From Methylobacterium sp. (GTDB lineage: Bacteria > Pseudomonadota > Alphaproteobacteria > Rhizobiales > Beijerinckiaceae), in assembly GCA_020252865.1 (NCBI GenBank), contig JADCCH010000298.1:1-10775 (forward strand): a DNA stretch of 10,775 nt, given 5' to 3'. The translations under genes and the position numbers were made by a program. Of the stretch, positions 1,768-10,605 are shown piece after piece. Within the stretch, counting starts at the first letter, position 1. Every line of letters begins with the position of its first letter. The notes beneath the pieces are model-generated. The model worked only from the letters and a program-made list of their open reading frames with translations. It was not told the DNA's origin and did no database searches.

Positions 1768-1857
1768 CGGTAGCGCCGCGTGCGGCCGGAAGCGCGCGGC
1801 CCTGGTGCCGGGGGCGGGAAACATGGTCCGATGCCGCGCGCCTTGCGTAGGCGGAAC

Positions 1858-3150
1858 ATGAGCAAACCTCCTTCTTCCCGCCTTTTCCTGCCCATGCGCG
1901 CCGCCGGCCTGGCGCGCCTCGCGGAATTTCTCCCGGCCGCGGGGCGCGCCTATGCCAATCGCCGCAACTCGGATCACGGGCCGGATGACCGGGCGAATGT
2001 CTCCATCCTCTCGCCCTATCTGCGCCATCGCCTCGTGACCGAGCGAGAGGTGCTGGACCGCGTTCTGCAACGCCACAGCCTCGAGGCGGCCGAGAAATTC
2101 GTGCAGGAGGTGTTCTGGCGCGGCTATTTCAAGGGCCATCTCGAAACCCGCCCCGAAATCTGGAGCCGGTATCAGGCGGCCTTGTCCGGCCAGCAGGCCG
2201 CTCTCGAGGAGGGCGGCAGCTTCGCCCGCGCCTATCGCAAGGCGGTGGAGGGCCGGACGGGCATCGATTGCTTCGATGCCTGGGTGGAGGAATTACGCGA
2301 GACCGGCTATCTCCACAACCACACGCGCATGTGGCTGGCCTCGATCTGGATCTTCATGCTGCGCCTGCCCTGGGAACTCGGCGCGGATTTCACTTTCCGG
2401 CATTTCATTGACGGCGACCCTGCCTCCAATACCCTCTCCTGGCGCTGGGTGGGCGGCTTGCACACCCGCGGCAAGACCTATCTCGCGCGGCCCGACAACA
2501 TCGCCGAGCATACGGGCGGGCGCTTCCGCCCCAAGGGGCTGGCGCGCGAGGCCATCGCGCTCGAAGAGCCGCCCCTGCCCGCCGCGCAACCCGCGCGCCC
2601 GGCGGATGATGCCGCGCCCGCCGGCCCCGCCCTGCTGCTGCTGACCGAGGAAGACCTCCACCCCGAGAGCCTGCCGCTCGCCTCGGCCGAGATCCGTGGC
2701 ATCTTCGCCTGCCATGCGACCGCCGCGCGATCGGCTTTCGCGGTTTCGGATCTGGCCCTCGCCTTCGCGGAAGGCGCGATGGCCGATGCCACGAGCCGCG
2801 CCAGCGCCCATTTCGGCGCGGGGGCGGAGCCTCTGCAGGCGCTGCGGGCGGATGACCTCGCCCGGCGCTGCCGCGCGCTGGGGGTGGAGCGCATCCTTAC
2901 CGCCTATGCGCCGGTGGGGCCGATGGGCGAGGAACTCGCCCGCCTGCGCCCGGCTCTCGCCCGGGCCGGCATCGCGCTCACCGAAATCCGCCGCAGCGAG
3001 GATGCGCTCATCTGGCCGCATGCCATGAAGGGCTTTTTCGGCCTGCGCGAGCGCATCCCCGATCTCGTCGGGAAGATGGGGATCGGCGCGGAGGCGATGC
3101 AGCCCGATCTCTTCACGCGCGATGCGCGCCGCGCGTCTGCCCACCGATGA
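1858..3150 (+). CDS. Photolyase/cryptochrome-family FAD-binding protein with apparently inverted domain order
   Basis: This 430-residue protein carries the photolyase FAD-binding helical domain at its N-terminus. Residues 149-158 read TGYLHNHTRM, and residues 185-206 hold DGD, then SNTLSWRWVGG, then LHTRGK. These correspond to the FAD-pocket segments of photolyases (E. coli: NNGGWQW), with the cofactor-proximal Trp kept (W195/W197). The usual N-terminal alpha/beta domain is missing before it. After a Pro/Ala linker (about 240-258), residues 259-400 look like that domain placed last: a hydrophobic strand then TEEDLHPESLP, later LARRCRALGVERILT, and HAMKGFFGLRERIP, which resembles the end of the alpha/beta domain. 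The likely role is a flavoprotein in light-dependent DNA repair or light sensing. ATG 1858 was chosen as the likely start, but its GGCGGA ribosome site is weak; ATGs at 1831 and 1894 are alternatives. The gene overlaps the next one by ATGA. The FAD-domain call is firm; the activity is unknown. Confidence 0.85.
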   Translation: MSKPPSSRLFLPMRAAGLARLAEFLPAAGRAYANRRNSDHGPDDRANVSILSPYLRHRLVTEREVLDRVLQRHSLEAAEKFVQEVFWRGYFKGHLETRPEIWSRYQAALSGQQAALEEGGSFARAYRKAVEGRTGIDCFDAWVEELRETGYLHNHTRMWLASIWIFMLRLPWELGADFTFRHFIDGDPASNTLSWRWVGGLHTRGKTYLARPDNIAEHTGGRFRPKGLAREAIALEEPPLPAAQPARPADDAAPAGPALLLLTEEDLHPESLPLASAEIRGIFACHATAARSAFAVSDLALAFAEGAMADATSRASAHFGAGAEPLQALRADDLARRCRALGVERILTAYAPVGPMGEELARLRPALARAGIALTEIRRSEDALIWPHAMKGFFGLRERIPDLVGKMGIGAEAMQPDLFTRDARRASAHR

Positions 3151-3506
3151 GCGGGCGGCCCGTCACGGTCTGGTTCGATTCCGCCTGCCCGATCTGCGCG
3201 CGGGAAATCCGGGTGATGCGCGCGCTGGATTGGCGCGGGAACATCGCCTTCATCGATCTTCACGCGCCCGATGCCGCCTGCCCGATCGACCCCGCCCTGC
3301 TGCTCGCCCGCTTCCATGCGCGGGATGCCGAGGGGCAATTGCATTCGGGTGCTGCGGCCTTCGCGCTGATGTGGCGGCACGTGCCGCTTTTCTGGCCGCT
3401 GGGGCAGATGGCGCGCATTCCCCTCGTGCTCGCGCTGCTGGAACGCGCCTATCTGCGGTTTCTCGTCTGGCGTCAGGGAAGGCCGGCGCGCAAGGTCGCG
3501 GTCTGA
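3147..3506 (+). CDS. DCC-family (DUF393) thiol-disulfide oxidoreductase-like protein
   Basis: This is a small 119-residue protein of the DCC family, which is related to thioredoxin-fold thiol redox proteins of poorly known function. The family signature DxxCxxC appears near the N-terminus as DSACPIC (residues 11-17), after the strand VTVWF. The C-terminal half has a hydrophobic segment around WRHVPLFWPLGQMARIPLVLALL, followed by a basic tail; this layout is typical of DCC proteins (helices rather than a clear membrane anchor). Its ATG overlaps the stop codon of the photolyase-like gene (ATGA), so the two are almost certainly co-transcribed and translationally coupled. DCC genes often neighbour photolyase or flavoprotein genes in proteobacteria (recalled, not checked). 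A redox partner role for the flavoprotein is inference. Confidence 0.85.
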   Translation: MSGRPVTVWFDSACPICAREIRVMRALDWRGNIAFIDLHAPDAACPIDPALLLARFHARDAEGQLHSGAAAFALMWRHVPLFWPLGQMARIPLVLALLERAYLRFLVWRQGRPARKVAV

Positions 3507-3675: not shown

Positions 3676-3692
3676 TGGCACAACCGTTGCTT
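3676..3692 (+). promoter_or_regulatory. Sigma-54 (RpoN) -24/-12 promoter for the ABC transporter/hydrolase operon
   Basis: TGGCAC (3676-3681), five bases, then TTGCTT (3687-3692) match the RpoN consensus TGGCAC-N5-TTGCW exactly, including GG at -24 and GC at -12 with correct spacing. The base before it (C) also fits. The predicted start is near 3702, leaving a leader of about 48 nt before the ATG at 3750. It is the only -24/-12 match I noticed, and it sits in the right place and orientation. It implies activator-dependent, probably nitrogen-responsive, control. Confidence 0.8.
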
Positions 3693-3749
3693 CAGATGCC
3701 GGACAAGCCAGCCGCTGGCGCTGGCGATCCGCTCCAGGGAGCCATGGCC

Positions 3750-4862
3750 ATGCCGTTCGATTGCTTTTCCCGCCGCTCATTCCTGCAAGGCGCCGCCGCG
3801 GGCACGGCCGCCGCTGCCCTTGGTTTCCCCAACCTCGCACGGGCCCAATCGGGCGTGACGATCGGCATCGTCTATGTCGGCCCGAAGGATGATTTCGGCT
3901 GGAACCAGGCGCATGCAGTCTCCATCGGCGTGCTCAAGGCCACGCCGGGCGTGAAGATCATCGAGGAAGAGAATGTGCCGGAAACGGCCGCCGTGGCGAA
4001 ATCCATGGAATCCATGATCAATCTCGAAGGCGCGAACCTGATTCTCGCGACCTCCTTCGGCTATTTCAACCCCTTCATGGTGGATGTGGCGAAGAAGTAT
4101 CCGAAGGTCACTTTGCGCCATGCCGCCCCGCTCTGGGAGAAGGGCAAGCACCCGGACAATGCCGGCAGCTATTTCGGCTATCTCGATCAGGCGCATTATG
4201 TGAACGGCGTCGCGGCGGGCCTCTCCACCCGGACCAACAAGATCGGCTTCGTGGCCGCAAAGCCGATTTCCAGCGTGCTGCGCAACATCAACTCGGTGCT
4301 CTGGGGCGCGCGCTCGGTGAACCCGAACGCCACGCTGCAGGTGATCTTCACCGGGGATTGGGCCCTGCCCGTGCGCGAGGCGGAAGCCGCGAATGCGCTG
4401 ATCGGCGCGGGCTGCGACATCCTGACCTGCCATGTCGACAGCCCGAAGGTCGTGATCGAGACCGCCGAGCGCCGGGGCATCAGGTCGCTGGGCCACAATG
4501 CGAGCCAGGCGCCGCTGGCACCGAAGGGCTTCATCACCGGCGCGGAATACAAGTGGGAGACGATCTACAGGATCTTCGCCGAGGCGATCGCCAAGGGCCA
4601 GCCGGTGCCGAACATGGTGTTCGGCGGCTATGACAAGGACATGGTGCGCAACACCGCCTTCGGGGCCGGCGCCGAGGAGCCGGCGCGCAAGGCAGCCGAG
4701 GCGGCGATCGCCGATCTCAAGGCCAACAAGCCGATCATCCGGGGCCCGGTGAAGGACAACAAGGGCAATGTGGTGCTGCCCAATGCGAGCTACGACAATT
4801 TCGATCGCGTGCTCGACGGCATGAACTTCCTCGCGGAGGGGGTGGTCGGCTCCATCACCTGA
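3750..4862 (+). CDS. BMP-family ABC transporter substrate-binding protein, Tat-exported
   Basis: This 370-residue periplasmic ligand-binding protein (BMP/PnrA-like family, PF02608) captures the substrate for the ABC importer encoded downstream. It begins with a twin-arginine signal, SRRSFLQG at residues 7-14, followed by an Ala-rich hydrophobic core; a probable cleavage follows ARA (residue 32). The mature part starts with strand VTIGIVYVGP, then DDFGWNQAH (47-55), the family's ligand-pocket region in the DxGW...H version rather than the nucleoside-type version. Further family segments include ILATSFGY and GSYFGYLDQAHYVNG. ATG 3750 is preferred over 3744 because AGGGAG (3736-3741) lies 8 nt before it and only 2 nt before 3744. 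The frame is open upstream to 3687, but that stretch overlaps the sigma-54 promoter. It is the first gene of the operon. Nucleosides are the classic family ligands; here the neighbours suggest a ureido compound (inference). Confidence 0.93.
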   Translation: MPFDCFSRRSFLQGAAAGTAAAALGFPNLARAQSGVTIGIVYVGPKDDFGWNQAHAVSIGVLKATPGVKIIEEENVPETAAVAKSMESMINLEGANLILATSFGYFNPFMVDVAKKYPKVTLRHAAPLWEKGKHPDNAGSYFGYLDQAHYVNGVAAGLSTRTNKIGFVAAKPISSVLRNINSVLWGARSVNPNATLQVIFTGDWALPVREAEAANALIGAGCDILTCHVDSPKVVIETAERRGIRSLGHNASQAPLAPKGFITGAEYKWETIYRIFAEAIAKGQPVPNMVFGGYDKDMVRNTAFGAGAEEPARKAAEAAIADLKANKPIIRGPVKDNKGNVVLPNASYDNFDRVLDGMNFLAEGVVGSIT

Positions 4863-4901
4863 TCGGGGCGCAGGACCGCGCCCGTTGCGGGGTCGATCGC
4901 C

Positions 4902-6026
4902 ATGAACCAGCCCGTTTCCATCCCCGCCGGCCCTGCCGCGGCAGGCCGCATCGGCCGCGAGCGCCTCGCGCGACTCCAGCGCGGGGCGGAGGCCGTGGCG
5001 ATCCCGATGCTGGCGCTGGTGATTTCGGCCGGCTTGTTCTCGATCTTCCTGCTGATCCTCGGGAAATCGCCGGTCCAGTTCTACAGCCTTATCTGGCTCG
5101 GCGGGTTCGGCACGCCGTTCTCGTGGTCGAACACCCTGCTGCGCGCCGCCCCGCTGATGCTGATGGCCCTGGCGGTGGCGATTCCCGCGCGGCTCGGCCT
5201 CACGATGATCGGCGGGGAGGGGGCGCTCGTGCTCGGCGGGTTCGCGGCGGCCGCCATCGCCGTGCCGCTGATCGGCACCACGAATCCGGTGCTGATGCAT
5301 GCGCTGATGCTGATCGCCGCGATGGGCATCGGCGCGATCTGGATCGGGATCGCGGGCGGCCTGCGCCATCATCGCGGCGTGAACGAGACGATCTCGACCC
5401 TGCTGCTTTCCTACATCGCCATCGCGATCATGAACTTTTTCGTCGAAGGCGCGCTGCGCGACCCCGCCGACCCGAACAAGCCCTCGACCAGGGCGATCGG
5501 CAGCGAGGCGATGATCGGCAAGATGCCGGGCATCGATGTGCATTGGGGCCTTGCGGTCGCGGTGCTCGCCTGCATCCTGCTCCATGTGCTGATGCAGCGC
5601 ACGACCTATGGCTTTGCCTGCCGCATCGCCGGGGGCAATGCGCGCGCCGCGCTCGCGCAGGGCCTGCCGGTGGGGAAGCTGATCGTCAGCGCCTCGATGA
5701 TCGCGGGGCTCTGCGCCGGTCTCGCGGGCTATTTCGAGGTGGCGGCCGTGCATGGCAAGGCCAATGCCTCGCTGGCCGCCGGCTACGGCTTCACCGGCAT
5801 TCTCGTGGCGTTTCTCGCGCGGCATAACCCGCTGGCGATCATTCCGGTGGCGATATTGTTCGGCGGCATCGCGGCGGCGGGCGGCATCATCCAGCGCCGC
5901 ATGGGCCTTCCCGATGCGAGCGTGCTGCTTCTGCAGGGCATGACCTTCCTCGTGCTGCTCGCGAGCGAAACGCTCTATGGCCGCTTCCGCCTCTTCAACC
6001 CCGCGGCCCGGACGGAGCGCACCTGA
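4902..6026 (+). CDS. ABC transporter permease, first subunit (BMP/nucleoside-type, BPD_transp_2)
   Basis: This inner-membrane permease of 374 residues belongs to the branched-chain/simple-sugar/nucleoside permease superfamily and pairs with the second permease to form the channel. A basic, cytosolic N-terminus (about residues 1-32) precedes multiple hydrophobic helices, the first around residues 33-55. The conserved motif NETISTLLLSYIA and the following segment FFVEGALRDP are typical of the first permease of BMP-type importers. A late cytosolic loop with GGNARAALAQGLPVGK is the probable ATPase-coupling region. The gene starts 39 nt after the binding-protein stop. Its stop overlaps the next start (TGATG), indicating coupled translation. 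No strong Shine-Dalgarno is visible at the start. Confidence 0.92.
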   Translation: MNQPVSIPAGPAAAGRIGRERLARLQRGAEAVAIPMLALVISAGLFSIFLLILGKSPVQFYSLIWLGGFGTPFSWSNTLLRAAPLMLMALAVAIPARLGLTMIGGEGALVLGGFAAAAIAVPLIGTTNPVLMHALMLIAAMGIGAIWIGIAGGLRHHRGVNETISTLLLSYIAIAIMNFFVEGALRDPADPNKPSTRAIGSEAMIGKMPGIDVHWGLAVAVLACILLHVLMQRTTYGFACRIAGGNARAALAQGLPVGKLIVSASMIAGLCAGLAGYFEVAAVHGKANASLAAGYGFTGILVAFLARHNPLAIIPVAILFGGIAAAGGIIQRRMGLPDASVLLLQGMTFLVLLASETLYGRFRLFNPAARTERT

Positions 6027-6949
6027 TGGATGGCTCATCGGCCCTCGTGACGGTTCTCGCGGCGATGATCGGCGGCGCGATCCGCGTCTCGACGCCCTTC
6101 CTGTTCGTGGCGCTGGGCGAGATGCTGACGGAGCGTTCGGGCCGCATCAATCTCGGCCTCGAAGGCACGCTCGTGCTCGGCGCGATGAGCGGCTATGCGA
6201 TCTCCTATCATACGGGTTCGCCCTGGCTGGGCCTGCTCGTGGCGGGCTTCGCGGGGATGATGATGGGCACGCTCCACGCGCTGATCTGCCGGCTGCCGAG
6301 GGTGAACGACATCGCCGTGGGCATCGCGCTGATGCTGTTCGGCCTCGGCATCGCGTTCTTTCTCGGCAAGGCCTATATCCAGCCCACCGCGCCACGCCTG
6401 GGCTCGATTCCGCTCGGCTTCTGGAGCAGCAACCCGCAGATCGAGCGGGCCCTTGAGATCAACCCGCTCTTCCTCATCGGGATTGCGCTCGCGTTCTTCC
6501 TCGCCTGGGCGCTGAAGAACACGCGGCCCGGCCTCATCCTGCGTGTCACGGGCGACAGCGAGGCGGCCGCGCGCGCGTTGGGCCATCCCGTGATGCTGAT
6601 CCGCCTGATGGCGACCGCCGCCGGCGGCTTCCTCGCGGGCATCGGCGGGGCGTTCCTCTCGCTCTACTATCCCGGAAGCTGGAACGAGGGCCTCTCCTCG
6701 GGGCAGGGGCTGATGGCCGTGGCCCTGGTGATCTTCGCGCGCTGGGACCCCATCCGCTGCCTTTACGCCGCGATGCTCTTCGGTGCTGCGGGGTCGCTCG
6801 GCCCTTCGCTGCAGGCCATCGGCATCACGCAGGGCTATTATTTCTTCAACGCCGCTCCCTACATCCTCACGCTTTTCCTGATGATCGGCTCGGCCGGCTC
6901 GAAGAAGGCGCTGCGGGATGCGCCGGGCGAATTGGCACTCACGCGGTGA
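6026..6949 (+). CDS. ABC transporter permease, second subunit (BMP/nucleoside-type)
   Basis: This 307-residue inner-membrane permease is the shorter partner of the preceding one. The segment [19 protein letters not shown] near residues 32-50 is the hallmark of the second permease in BMP-type systems (family form ERSGxxNxGLEG). [21 protein letters not shown] is a conserved helix. A loop with [19 protein letters not shown] is the likely ATPase-contact region. Hydrophobic helices fill most of the chain. The start overlaps the preceding stop by one base. The end lies 11 nt before the ATG of the biuret-hydrolase-like gene. Confidence 0.92.
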
Positions 6950-6960
6950 GGAAAGACGCC

Positions 6961-7638
6961 ATGCCGACGCTCCCCGCCAACCCCTATCCCTGGCCGTATG
7001 ACGGTGCCTTCAGCCCCGCGAATACGGCGCTGATCGTGATCGACATGCAGACCGATTTCTGCGGCAAGGGCGGCTATGTCGATGCGATGGGCTATGACCT
7101 TTCGCTCACCCGCGCGCCGATCGAGCCCATCCGCCGCGTGCTCGAAGCCATGCGCGCCAGGGGCTATTGGATCATCCATACCCGCGAGGGGCACCGGCCC
7201 GATCTTTCCGATCTGCCGGTGAACAAGCGCTGGCGCTCGCAGCGCATCGGTGCCGGCATCGGCGATCCCGGCCCGTGCGGGAAGATCCTCGTGCGCGGCG
7301 AACCGGGCTGGGAGATCATCGAGGAACTCGCGCCGCTGCCGGGCGAGACCATCATCGACAAGCCGGGCAAGGGCTCCTTCTGCGCGACCGACCTTGAAAT
7401 GATCCTGCGCCAGCGCGGCATCCGGAACATCATCCTCACCGGCATCACCACGGATGTCTGCGTGCACACCACCATGCGCGAGGCGAATGATCGCGGCTTC
7501 GAATGCCTGCTGCTGGAAGATTGCTGCGGCGCAACCGACAAGGGCAACCACGAGGCCGCGATCAAGATGGTGACGATGCAGGGCGGCGTGTTCGGTGCCG
7601 TGGCGAATTCCGCCATGCTGATCGCGGGCCTGCCATGA
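6961..7638 (+). CDS. biuH: Biuret amidohydrolase-like cysteine hydrolase (isochorismatase family)
   Basis: This 225-residue cytosolic hydrolase has the isochorismatase fold. The catalytic triad is Asp28 (VIDMQTDF), Lys134 (DKPGKGSF) and Cys167 (TTDVCV). Adding 8 gives 36/142/175, the triad I recall for Rhizobium leguminosarum BiuH. The other pocket residues recalled for BiuH also line up: Phe33 (41), Lys137 (145) and Gln207 (215). Segments such as [22 protein letters not shown] and [15 protein letters not shown] closely resemble BiuH. The expected reaction is biuret plus water to allophanate and ammonia (EC 3.5.1.84). ATG 6961 has GAGGA 8 nt upstream; a GTG at 6946 overlapping the previous stop would add five residues. 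The gene sits between permease and ATPase genes, as if its substrate is what the importer brings in. Other ureido-amide substrates remain possible. Confidence 0.82.
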
Positions 7639-9167
7639 TCGCCGGGCCCGCCCGCCGCGCCATCGGCCTCGAAGCCATCGCCATGCGCAAGGTGTTCGGC
7701 GCGCTGGTGGCGCTCGATGATGTGTCGCTGAAGGTGCGGGCGGGCTCCTTCCATGCGCTGCTCGGCGAGAATGGCGCGGGCAAATCCACGCTCGTCAAAT
7801 GCATCATGGGCTTCTACCAGCCCGATGCCGGGCAGGTGCTGGTGGATGGCATGGAACGCGCCATCCGCAACCCGAAGGAAGCGGCGGAAGCAGGGATAGG
7901 CATGGTCTACCAGCATTTCACGCTGGTGCCTTCGCTCACGGGTGCCGAAAACCTCGTGGTCTCGCGCCCGCATGGCCGGACCATCATCCACTGGGCGGAA
8001 GAAAATCGCGCGCTCGAGGCCTTCCTCGATCGCATGCCGTTCCGCGCGCCGCTCGACCGGCCCGTGTCACTGCTCTCGGCGGGCGAGAAGCAGAAGCTCG
8101 AAATCCTGAAGCAGCTCTATCTCGACCAGCGTTTCATCATCCTCGACGAGCCGACCTCCGTGCTCACCCCGGGCGAGGCGGATGAGGTGCTCGGCCTGCT
8201 GCGCGACATGACCCGGCGCGGCGAGGTGACCGTGCTGATGATCACCCACAAGTTCCGCGAGGTCACGGCCTTCGCCGATGATCTGACGGTTCTGCGCAAG
8301 GGCGCCTTCGCCGGAAGGGGCGTGGTGAAGGAAACCCCGGTGGAGAGCATGGCCGCGATGATGATCGGCGACACACCCATCCGCGAGCGTGCCGACCGCG
8401 TGGCGCATGAGAAAAAGCCCGTGGCGCTCGACATTGCCGGGGTCTTCGCGGATGCCGATGACGGCCGCCCGGCCCTCGAGGCGATCAACCTGAAGATCCG
8501 CGCCGGCGAGATCGTGGGCATTGCCGGCGTCTCCGGCAATGGCCAGGGCGCGCTGGTGGAGGTGCTCTCCGGCCAGCGCCCCATGCGGCTGGGCCAGCTC
8601 GCGGTCCATGGCCAGGATTACCTGCCGAACCGCGCGAGCATGGCGCGCCTGAAAGTGTTCGGCCTGCCGGAGGAACCGCTGAAGAACGCCACCGTGCCGA
8701 AAATGTCGGTGGCGGAGAACATGGCCTTCCGCTCGTTTGATCGCCCGCCCATCGCCTCGCTGAAATACTGGCTGTCGCCCGCGCCCATGCGGAAGCAGGC
8801 GGAAGAACTCATCGCGAAATACCGCGTGAAGACGCCCTCGCCCGATGCGCCCATCGCGGCGCTCTCGGGCGGCAATGTGCAGCGCAGCGTGCTCGCACGC
8901 GAACTCTCGGGAGATGTCGAGGTGCTGATCGTTGCAAACCCCTGCTTCGGGCTCGATTTCGCCTCAGCTGCGGAAATCCGCGCGCAGATCATGGATCAGC
9001 GCAACCGGGGTGCCGCCGTGTTGCTCGTCTCGGAGGACCTGGACGAAATCCTCTCGCTCTCGGATCGCGTGGCGGTGATGTCCGGCGGGCAGATCACCTA
9101 TGTCGAGGAGATCGGGAAGACCGACCGCGCGACCATCGGCGCGCATATGGCCGGGGGAGGGCATTGA
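7635..9167 (+). CDS. ABC transporter ATP-binding protein with two nucleotide-binding domains (BMP/nucleoside-type)
   Basis: This 510-residue ATPase energises the importer and carries two fused nucleotide-binding domains, as usual for sugar/nucleoside-type systems. NBD1 has Walker [10 protein letters not shown] (residues 44-52), the Q-loop YQHF, an altered signature LSAGEKQK (147-154) and Walker B ILDEPT (169-174). NBD2 is degenerate: [10 protein letters not shown] (about 298-307) replaces Walker A and lacks the Lys, the signature is LSGGNVQ (410-416), and VANPCFGLD (433-441) replaces the Walker B/D-loop region without a catalytic Glu. Loss of Walker A in NBD2 is seen in relatives, so one ATP site is probably non-hydrolytic. 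Its ATG overlaps the hydrolase stop (ATGA). The frame is open further upstream to 7503, but that is only overlap with the hydrolase gene. Transport of a small polar nitrogen compound is inferred from the neighbours. Confidence 0.93.
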
Positions 9168-9835
9168 TGGCCGCGATTTCCATCCCCGCCGAGCCCGGCC
9201 CCTTCCCGCTGGCGCCGGGCCGCACCGCGCTGATCGTGATCGACATGCAGCGCGATTTCCTCGAGCCCGGCGGGTTCGGCGAGGCGCTTGGCAACGACGT
9301 CTCGACCCTGCGGCCCGCCATCGCGCCGGTCGCGCGGCTGCTCGCCCTGTTCCGCGCGAGGGGCTGGCCGGTGATCCACACGCGGGAATCGCACCGGCCC
9401 GACCTTTCGGATTGCCCGCCCGCGAAGCTCTCGCGCGGCGCGCCGGGGCTGCGGATCGGGGATCAAGGCCCGATGGGGCGCATTCTCGTGCAGGGGGAGG
9501 CGGGCAACGCCATCCTGCCGGAATGCGCGCCCATTCCCGGCGAGATCGAGATCGACAAGCCGGGGAAGGGCGCCTTCCACCGCACCGATCTTCAAGCCAT
9601 GCTGGAGGCAAGGGGCATCTCGCATCTCGTCTTCGCCGGCGTGACAACCGAGGTTTGCGTGCAGACCTCCATGCGCGAGGCGAATGATCGCGGCCATGAA
9701 TGCCTGCTGATCGAGGAGGCGACCGAAAGCTATTTCCCCGCCTTCAAGGCCGCGACGCTTGCGATGATCCGCGCGCAGGGCGGCATTGTCGGCTGGACGG
9801 CGAAACTCGCGGATTTCGAGGCAGCACTGGCATGA
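9167..9835 (+). CDS. Second cysteine hydrolase of the isochorismatase family, paralogue of the BiuH-like protein
   Basis: This 222-residue isochorismatase-fold amidohydrolase has its triad at Asp26 (VIDMQRDF), Lys131 (DKPGKGAF) and Cys164 (TTEVCV). The BiuH pocket residues are also kept (Phe31, Lys134, Gln204). It is clearly a paralogue of the protein encoded at 6961-7638 but differs in the substrate-lid stretch (here [19 protein letters not shown], in the other protein a stretch with NKRWRSQ and GDPGPCG) and after the Cys (EEATESYF against EDCCGATD). It may therefore act on a related substrate; triuret is the obvious candidate because triuret hydrolase (TrtA) is a known BiuH relative, but I cannot assign it. 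ATG 9167 overlaps the ATPase stop (TGATG) and follows a GGGGGAGGG ribosome site; the TTG immediately before it (9164) is not favoured. Its own stop overlaps the next start (ATGA). Confidence 0.85.
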
Positions 9836-10605
9836 CGGATGATCGCAAGGGCCGCTGGGCGGGGCGCAACGAGACGAAGGATCGCGTGCGCGAGGATGTC
9901 TGGCAAGGGCTGGAGCGGAGCGGCTTCGGCATCGGCCCGGTCTGGAGCGCCATCCCGAATTTCGTCGGCGCGGATCTCGCGGCCTGGCGTCTCGCGCAGA
10001 CGCCGGAATGGCAGGCCGCGCGAACGGTGAAATGCAACCCCGATCCGCCGCAGATCCCCGTGCGCCTGCGGGCGCTGCTCGATGGCAAGGTGCTCTATGC
10101 GCCCGTGCCCTATCTCACCGAAGGTTTTCCGTATCTGCGGATCGACTCCGCAAGGCTGCGCGAGAAGGGCGTGAGCTTCGAACTCGCCGCGACCTCCGAA
10201 GGCTACATGATGCATGGCGAGCGCATCGATTTCGAGGCGGTGGAGCCGCTGGATTTCTGCGTGGTCGGGTCGGTCGCGGTCACGCGGTCGGGCGGGCGGA
10301 CGGGGAAGGGCGCGGGCTTCGCCGACCTTGAAACCGGCATTTTCCGCGAACTCGGCATCATCCGCCCCGGCACGCCCATGGCCACGACCATCCATTCGAG
10401 CCAGCTCGTCGCCGAGCCGCGCGTGGTGATGCAGGCGCATGACAGCCCGCTCGACTTCATCGCGACGGAGAGCGAACTCATCCGCACCGGCAACGAGGCC
10501 CCGCGCCCGGCGGGGGTGGATTGGGATTCCGTGCAGCCCGACCAGTTCGAGACCATCCCCTTCCTGCGCGACCTTCACGCGCGGATGCGGGCGAGGAAGG
10601 TCTAG
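9832..10605 (+). CDS. 5-formyltetrahydrofolate cyclo-ligase-like protein (COG0212, MTHFSD-type paralogue)
   Basis: This 257-residue protein is of the 5-FCL-like family, which shares the fold of 5-formyl-THF cyclo-ligase but is a distinct paralogue. Residues 17-50 ([14 protein letters not shown]...IPNFVGAD) and the motif [17 protein letters not shown] (144-160) followed by AGFADLE match the MTHFSD/COG0212 form. Classical cyclo-ligases instead carry a GYGGGYYD-like end to this loop. The Gly/Lys-rich loop is the likely ATP or phosphate site. The family's true reaction is unsettled; published comparative genomics, as I recall it, linked COG0212 to thiamin metabolism. It is the last gene of the operon, overlapping the second hydrolase by four bases (ATGA), so it is coupled to amide hydrolysis and import. 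Folate salvage cannot be ruled out but is less likely given the motif. Confidence 0.85.

Follow-up and report, generated by a model that had tools for sequence, protein, structure and literature searches.

Seven tightly joined genes on the forward strand of the window, the whole 10,775-nucleotide stretch of Methylobacterium sp. DNA that was analyzed, probably form a triuret/biuret nitrogen-scavenging operon, a reading to which we give a probability of about 0.7. It follows from the match of the first hydrolase to the biuret amidohydrolase model and from the residues that the second shares with the triuret hydrolase TrtA. Most of the operon is a known kind of cluster, and its COG0212 partner, an enzyme with a fold that uses ATP, is an unexplained addition.

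Gene order and the two hydrolases

The operon begins with a BMP-family solute-binding protein (3750..4862; Pfam Bmp, 103 bits) carrying a TAT signal (TAT_signal, 28.8). Its open reading frame was listed at 3687-4862 from a TTG codon, with in-frame ATG codons at 3744 and 3750, the latter being the start taken by the sequence-only reading. After a gap of 39 bases come ABC permease 1 (4902..6026) and ABC permease 2 (6026..6949), both of the BPD_transp_2 family, followed by hydrolase 1 (6946..7638; Isochorismatase), the double ABC ATPase of the importer (7635..9167; ABC_tran in two stretches), hydrolase 2 (9164..9835; Isochorismatase), and the COG0212 protein (9832..10605; 5-FTHF_cyc-lig). Given the first start codons, the genes overlap by 1 or 4 bases at each of the final five junctions, from permease 1 to the COG0212 gene; alternative ATG codons lie 15 bases downstream of the first start codon in hydrolase 1 and 3 bases downstream in hydrolase 2. 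The open reading frame check agreed with the seven genes at these coordinates, and Pfam families matched all seven. The interleaving of hydrolase and transporter genes described from the sequence was also confirmed, with hydrolase 1 located between permease 2 and the ATPase. As a point against the operon reading, no promoter- or terminator-like sites turned up around the genes in consensus scans. A photolyase-like open reading frame is located at 1780-3150 and was covered by the family scan from 1855 on.

Hydrolase 1 was identified as BiuH, the biuret amidohydrolase. It scored 425.8 bits against the NCBI BiuH model NF050097 (cut-off, 370), matched the solved structure 6azo at 4e-128, retained the catalytic Asp, Lys, and Cys, and showed the BiuH-type residues Y, Y, D, and V at TrtA positions 35, 41, 160, and 205. 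Hydrolase 2 fell below the same cut-off (249.9 bits), and its top solved relative was TrtA (6xix, 8e-89). All eight residues compared (D24, K129, C162, Q202, F35, N41, E160, and I205) were identical to those of 6xix, and the four discriminating positions (F, N, E, and I) were all as in published TrtA. The low model score and the TrtA-type residues ruled out a second BiuH, so that the initial description of two BiuH-like amidohydrolases held for hydrolase 1 only. TrtA is distinguished by its activity on triuret, which exceeds that on biuret by about four orders of magnitude, and hydrolase 2 is predicted from its sequence to be a triuret hydrolase.

In the proposed pathway, TrtA would convert triuret to carboxybiuret and ammonia, with carboxybiuret decaying to biuret, as is in print for a homologue, and BiuH would convert biuret to allophanate and ammonia, as is in print for homologues. 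By homology, AtzF would split allophanate, and AtzE with AtzH would give a parallel route from carboxybiuret; the three genes sit on other contigs of the window genome. The sequence-only reading had proposed import of a ureido or amide compound with stepwise ammonia release. Its hydrolytic part stands for ureido compounds through BiuH plus TrtA, and its import part is retained as a prediction, in which the BMP-type ABC importer would bring small planar ureides into the cell.

The importer and its conservation

The importer combines a Bmp-family binding protein, two BPD_transp_2 permeases, and a double ABC ATPase, the composition of a BMP/PnrA-type system. A B6 importer was rejected because the scores against NF047927 to NF047930 were 37.2, 140.9, 189.1, and 414.2 against cut-offs of 400, 465, 400, and 670, respectively, both permeases thus falling under the B6-transporter cut-off. 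The closest solved chains of the binding protein were 3s99 and AtzT (6pi5), and its pocket, numbered as in AtzT, reads W S F H S N W H D. At the positions of the AtzT guanine pocket (Y45 S97 F98 E165 W194 N218 N220), the window protein has W S F S W H D, with Ser instead of Glu at position 165, and so lacks the pocket of an AtzT-like guanine binder. Similar BMP proteins also occur alone, adjoining DUF1989 genes, which counts against the triuret/biuret reading.

All seven genes occurred together in 14 of the 199 relatives searched, the window genome counted, and the set was also found in L004, L005, L006, and the Allorhizobium plasmid L135. The order was constant in all of these, with extra genes intervening in some genomes. 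Because the same order recurs in 14 of 199 relatives, the arrangement is not due to chance, and the conserved co-occurrence that the initial reading would predict was observed.

Loci with a BMP protein at least 60% identical to that of the window and with TrtA were classified as type A (26 loci), which left out five BMP copies at 60 to 64% without TrtA (L171-L175). Those with a BMP protein 50 to 53% identical were classified as type B (13 loci, with G063 partial at a contig end); G122 (45%) was excluded from both, and the 58-genome hit set includes BiuH-only matches. Type-B loci have BiuH nearby and TrtA not always, and their pocket was read in 5 of the 13 loci (L102, L103, L104, L106, and L109) and in plasmids L141 and L142 outside the 199. 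COG0212 was present in 14 of the 26 type-A loci, the type of the window, in 0 of the 13 type-B loci, and in 3 of the 9 TrtA-bearing genomes of the window's genus. One type-A genome without it (G005) is 83% complete. The COG0212 protein therefore recurs with one importer version in many alphaproteobacteria and is conserved, not obligate as its linkage had first appeared.

The COG0212 partner and alternative explanations

COG0212 proteins are said, after work by Pribat in 2011, to occur in all domains of life. The window protein has the 5-formyltetrahydrofolate cyclo-ligase fold and a glycine-rich loop ending in Asp. Available portions of the literature link the family to thiamin in plants and bacteria and give its reaction as unknown (PMC4120688), and they present it as a thiamin-associated cyclo-ligase paralog (PMC4120688, PMC5041015). 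The window protein shares family and fold with this paralog, but the operon type forms a separate, distinct clade (26 rows; support, 100/99), 22 of whose 26 rows accompany a type-A BMP importer.

The protein may be an accessory enzyme tied to this importer subtype, and the extra ATP-dependent or repair step suggested by the sequence-only reading is plausible. The published triuret pathway contains no step requiring COG0212. Tentatively, the subfamily could be an ATP-dependent enzyme acting on a formyl- or ureido-bearing ligand of one BMP-importer subtype; this ligand would connect the breakdown of ureides (triuret, biuret, and cyanuric acid) with thiamin-linked loci, and its conversion would be the function so far missing for the orphan COG0212 family. 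With low confidence, we infer an ATP-driven, cyclo-ligase-style activation, at a formyl or ureido group, of a co-imported compound beyond the reach of the hydrolases.

A somewhat unlikely alternative is that the main cargo of the importer is a heterocycle resembling a purine or pyrimidine, such as an oxidized purine or thiamin pyrimidine, and that COG0212 modifies this compound, the hydrolases using only its breakdown products. Guanine is the ligand of AtzT, one of the closest solved binding proteins, but at the position of its Glu165 all 33 type-A binding proteins read carry Ser, Thr, or Ile. Two Rhodobacterales plasmids (L137 and L138) carry the type-A BMP protein and COG0212 without the hydrolases, and L137 adjoins a thiamin cluster, thereby suggesting that the ligand may not be a ureide. 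However, this thiamin neighborhood was found at one locus only, and among the 199 relatives the type-A importer occurred at 26 loci with TrtA against 5 more copies without it. The published thiamin link agrees with a heterocycle, as do the NMT1/THI5-type binding proteins encoded next to distantly related COG0212 paralogs of L062 and L138 (neighborhoods examined for 10 of 12 genomes, with G506 and G572 left out).

It is improbable that COG0212 is a second 5-formyltetrahydrofolate cyclo-ligase for one-carbon by-products, such as formate released by the formamidase that related operons encode. The fold is the same and several related operons carry formamidase, but the protein scored 19.1 bits against TIGR02727 (cut-off, 84.9), and the open reading frame list shows no formamidase in the window operon. 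A canonical gene over the cut-off is encoded elsewhere in the near-complete sister genomes G004 and G008, and the 78%-complete window genome yielded none. Least probable is that COG0212 takes the place of AtzD at the front end of the pathway, preparing or opening a cyclic precursor, since the exclusion across the 26 type-A loci (both, 2; COG0212 only, 12; AtzD only, 9; neither, 3; P = 0.004) weakened to P = 0.14 at one count per genus and state (any COG0212-positive locus making a genus positive; g1 and g27 mixed) and G000, G004, and G008 have an AtzD gene elsewhere.

The conserved operon ties the COG0212 subfamily to an importer as well as to hydrolases whose substrates are known, which narrows the candidate substrates to a short list open to testing. 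It would also reveal the true cargo of BMP importers that neighbor biuret and triuret genes.

Comparison with known systems

The linkage of a BMP importer to biuret and triuret genes had been regarded as new, but the Rhizobium johnstonii (leguminosarum) 3841 pRL10 record and the available part of PMC12625717 already show it. The published descriptions searched, as far as available, gave no COG0212 partner of such a cluster. On pRL10, the order BMP-permease-permease-(formamidase)-BiuH-(AtzD)-ATPase-TrtA is interleaved as in the window; in contrast, this cluster has AtzD, formamidase, and cupin and no COG0212, and its binding protein has the other kind of pocket (Y S F Q Q N W H D). The nitrifier trtA/biuH/trtB/atzF clusters with bmpA-nupABC likewise combine a BMP-type transporter with biuH, trtA, and atzF, and "cyclo-ligase" has 0 occurrences in the main text (PMC12625717). 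In the Herbaspirillum sp. BH-1 TrtA/BiuH/AtzF operon (PMC7948467, main text, with 0 occurrences of "ABC transporter" and "cyclo-ligase"), TrtA stands with BiuH and the compared residues match those of the window, whereas atzF lies inside the operon and not elsewhere in the genome. Finally, although the window operon holds none of D, G, E, H, and F of the Pseudomonas sp. ADP atzDGEHF/AtzT system, as described in the available parts of PMC6219798 and PMC6834077, the window genome encodes homologues of AtzE, AtzH, AtzF, and AtzD, and its BMP protein is related to AtzT.

Operon layout and replicon

The seven-gene operon described in the sequence-only reading was correctly recognized. Its genes are arranged in the order BMP binding protein, permease, permease, BiuH, ATPase, TrtA, and COG0212, with the BMP gene starting at position 3744 or 3750 and ending at 4862 and the COG0212 gene (9832 to 10605) in last place. 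The last five junctions are overlaps of 1 or 4 bases, and the first junction, between the BMP and permease genes, is a gap of 39 bases. The window spans positions 1 to 10775 of contig C221. The nearest named relatives of the COG0212 gene are in two Methylobacterium MAGs (97 to 98% identity).

On the minus strand, positions 3 to 1741 contain a repABC-type RepA, which scored above the TIGR03453 cutoff (643.9 versus 348.45 bits), and a second ORF that overlaps it and matches ParB_N weakly, at 25.9 bits, just under the cutoff of 26.3. Because RepA and the ParB_N-like ORF sit before the operon, the replicon is probably of the plasmid type (plasmid or chromid). This repABC-type partition locus lies about 2 kb from the operon. 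In addition, the segment 5' of the operon at 1780 to 3506 holds an ORF that matches the photolyase FAD domain over only part of its length (residues 82 to 209 of the 431 scanned) and then a DCC1-like oxidoreductase gene; both genes are kept in the same place in loci L001 and L002.

Hydrolases and the predicted pathway

Hydrolase 1 scored above the BiuH equivalog cutoff and matched R. leguminosarum BiuH (6azo, 4e-128), whereas hydrolase 2 fell under that cutoff and matched TrtA best (6xix, 8e-89). At the discriminating positions 35, 41, 160, and 205, as discussed in passages of PMC7948467, hydrolase 1 carries the BiuH-like residues Y, Y, D, and V, and hydrolase 2 carries the TrtA-like residues F, N, E, and I. 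D24, E72, K129, K132, C162, and Q202 are present in both. The chemistry of TrtA and BiuH has been published for homologues: passages of PMC7948467 give carboxybiuret, which decays to biuret, as the TrtA product and describe trtA-biuH clusters, and parts of PMC5806882 and PMC6219798 treat BiuH and AtzH.

The allophanate hydrolase gene is absent from the window operon. AtzF-like (59% to a Rhizobium RU36D protein), AtzE-like (63%), and AtzH-like genes were found elsewhere in the window genome, a draft that is 78% complete, on contigs C238 and C224, and these genes are mutually adjacent in two near-complete sister genomes (G004 and G008). AtzD-like genes likewise lie outside the operon locus. Same-locus pathway genes occur in other genomes, as in L006 (BMP-P-P-BiuH-ATPase-TrtA-AtzG-AtzE-COG0212-AtzH-GntR-AtzF, where P is a permease).

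The best explanation, to which we assign a probability of about 0.7, is a triuret/biuret nitrogen-scavenging operon. A planar ureide would be taken up by the BMP importer, and the pathway would be completed by AtzF encoded elsewhere in the genome. COG0212 might use ATP to act on some compound that enters through the same importer.

TrtA/BiuH-type matches (E 1e-50) were also present in 78 Escherichia plasmid records. On the E. coli plasmid p3R-1 (L178, 7007 to 14217), a TrtA-like hydrolase (60%) adjoins DUF2877, fdrA, DUF1116, carbamate kinase, and cytosine permease genes.

Distribution of COG0212 and its association with the importer

Among 199 relatives, the window genome included, close matches to COG0212 (E at most 2.1e-39) occurred in 17, and in 14 of these the gene sits with all seven genes. 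It lies away from the trtA locus of the same genome in G069 and G175 and is a fragment in G030, where TrtA was not found. The truncated G030 gene (last 83 residues, 77% identical) lies between a PuuE-like gene (below cutoff) and an M20 peptidase gene (L058, 8463 to 11299). TrtA or BiuH was found in 16 of the 17 COG0212 genomes versus 58 of 199 overall (Fisher 7e-9, uncorrected for kinship). In a class-wide sample, 15 of 385 genomes matched COG0212 at 1e-15. Besides the window's own, two of these matches exceeded 60% identity (G493 and G570, carrying loci L157 and L158), and twelve were at 31 to 41%; no BMP, BiuH, or TrtA match was found near the latter in the 10 neighborhoods fetched of 12. 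The family of G493 had a match in 3 of 24 genomes. COG0212 is a minority addition to TrtA/BiuH-type loci, since only 7 plasmid records carried it (E 1e-5) versus 270 with a TrtA/BiuH-type match (E 1e-50). The linkage described as obligate-looking was not upheld: COG0212 is conserved and tied to one importer type but is not obligate.

Two importer types were distinguished by the binding pocket of the BMP protein; for the counts, type A loci have a BMP protein at least 60% identical to the window's together with TrtA, and type B loci have one that is 50 to 53% identical. COG0212 accompanied 14 of 26 type A loci and none of 13 type B loci in the 199 relatives (p 0.0009), or 10 of 14 and 0 of 11 when counted per genus (p 0.0005), per-genus counting being the only phylogenetic correction. 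COG0212 presence tracks importer subtype and not TrtA, because loci L003, L157, and L158 (BMP-P-P-formamidase-BiuH-ATPase-COG0212) are without TrtA and two Rhodobacterales plasmids (L137 and L138) are without all hydrolases sought, yet have COG0212 and the importer. On both plasmids the order is LysR-COG0212-BMP-P-P-ATPase, with no hydrolase gene in that stretch and a type A BMP protein 62 to 64% identical to the window's. Thus, the COG0212 substrate is more likely an importer ligand than an intermediate of triuret breakdown.

An importer mainly carrying a purine- or pyrimidine-like heterocycle that COG0212 modifies, such as a thiamin pyrimidine, is a less likely reading. One of the Rhodobacterales loci adjoins thiD, thiS, thiazole synthase, thiamine phosphate synthase, a ThiF-family gene, TenA, and an NMT1/THI5-type binding protein, but the thiamin side is weakened because no Pfam family was found for the binding protein of locus L007. 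L138 (3281 to 13994) carries two COG0212 paralogs close together, at 33% and 54% to that of the window; an NMT1/THI5-type importer accompanies one of them and the BMP importer the other. On a third plasmid, COG0212 adjoins a different BMP importer (25% identity).

Five further BMP genes (L171 to L175, 60 to 64%) were found without TrtA or this kind of permease in the stretch. GntR and DUF1989 genes are near L173, L174, and L175; DUF1989 is near L171; and GntR is near L172, where DUF1989 was not seen. L172 has Ile at pocket position 165; the four with DUF1989 nearby have Leu there. The BMP proteins of these four are 56 to 62% identical to the window's; L174 has a flavin reductase gene and L171 a subthreshold piece of one. 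In two operons with a type B binding protein, a small cupin gene lies directly 3' of TrtA (L103, 9406 to 9759; L141, 10656 to 11009).

Comparison with known systems

The binding pockets were compared at positions taken from passages on AtzT in PMC6834077. In AtzT the pocket residues are Y S F T E N W N N. The type A pocket reads W S F H x N W H D in 33 BMP proteins including the window's, where x is Ser in 20, Thr in 10, and Ile in 3, and the type B pocket reads Y S F Q Q N W H D in seven. Compared with AtzT, the aromatic sandwich is retained, but the guanine-contacting Glu is gone. No report linking COG0212 or 5-formyltetrahydrofolate cyclo-ligase to biuret or cyanuric acid was found in the literature searched, a set with supplementary figures and most subscription papers outside it. 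The ureide reading of the operon holds for the enzymes BiuH and TrtA. The pairing of a BMP importer with such genes is already in print, bmpA-nupABC with biuH, trtA, trtB, and atzF appearing in portions of PMC12625717. The new, unexplained part is the COG0212 partner.
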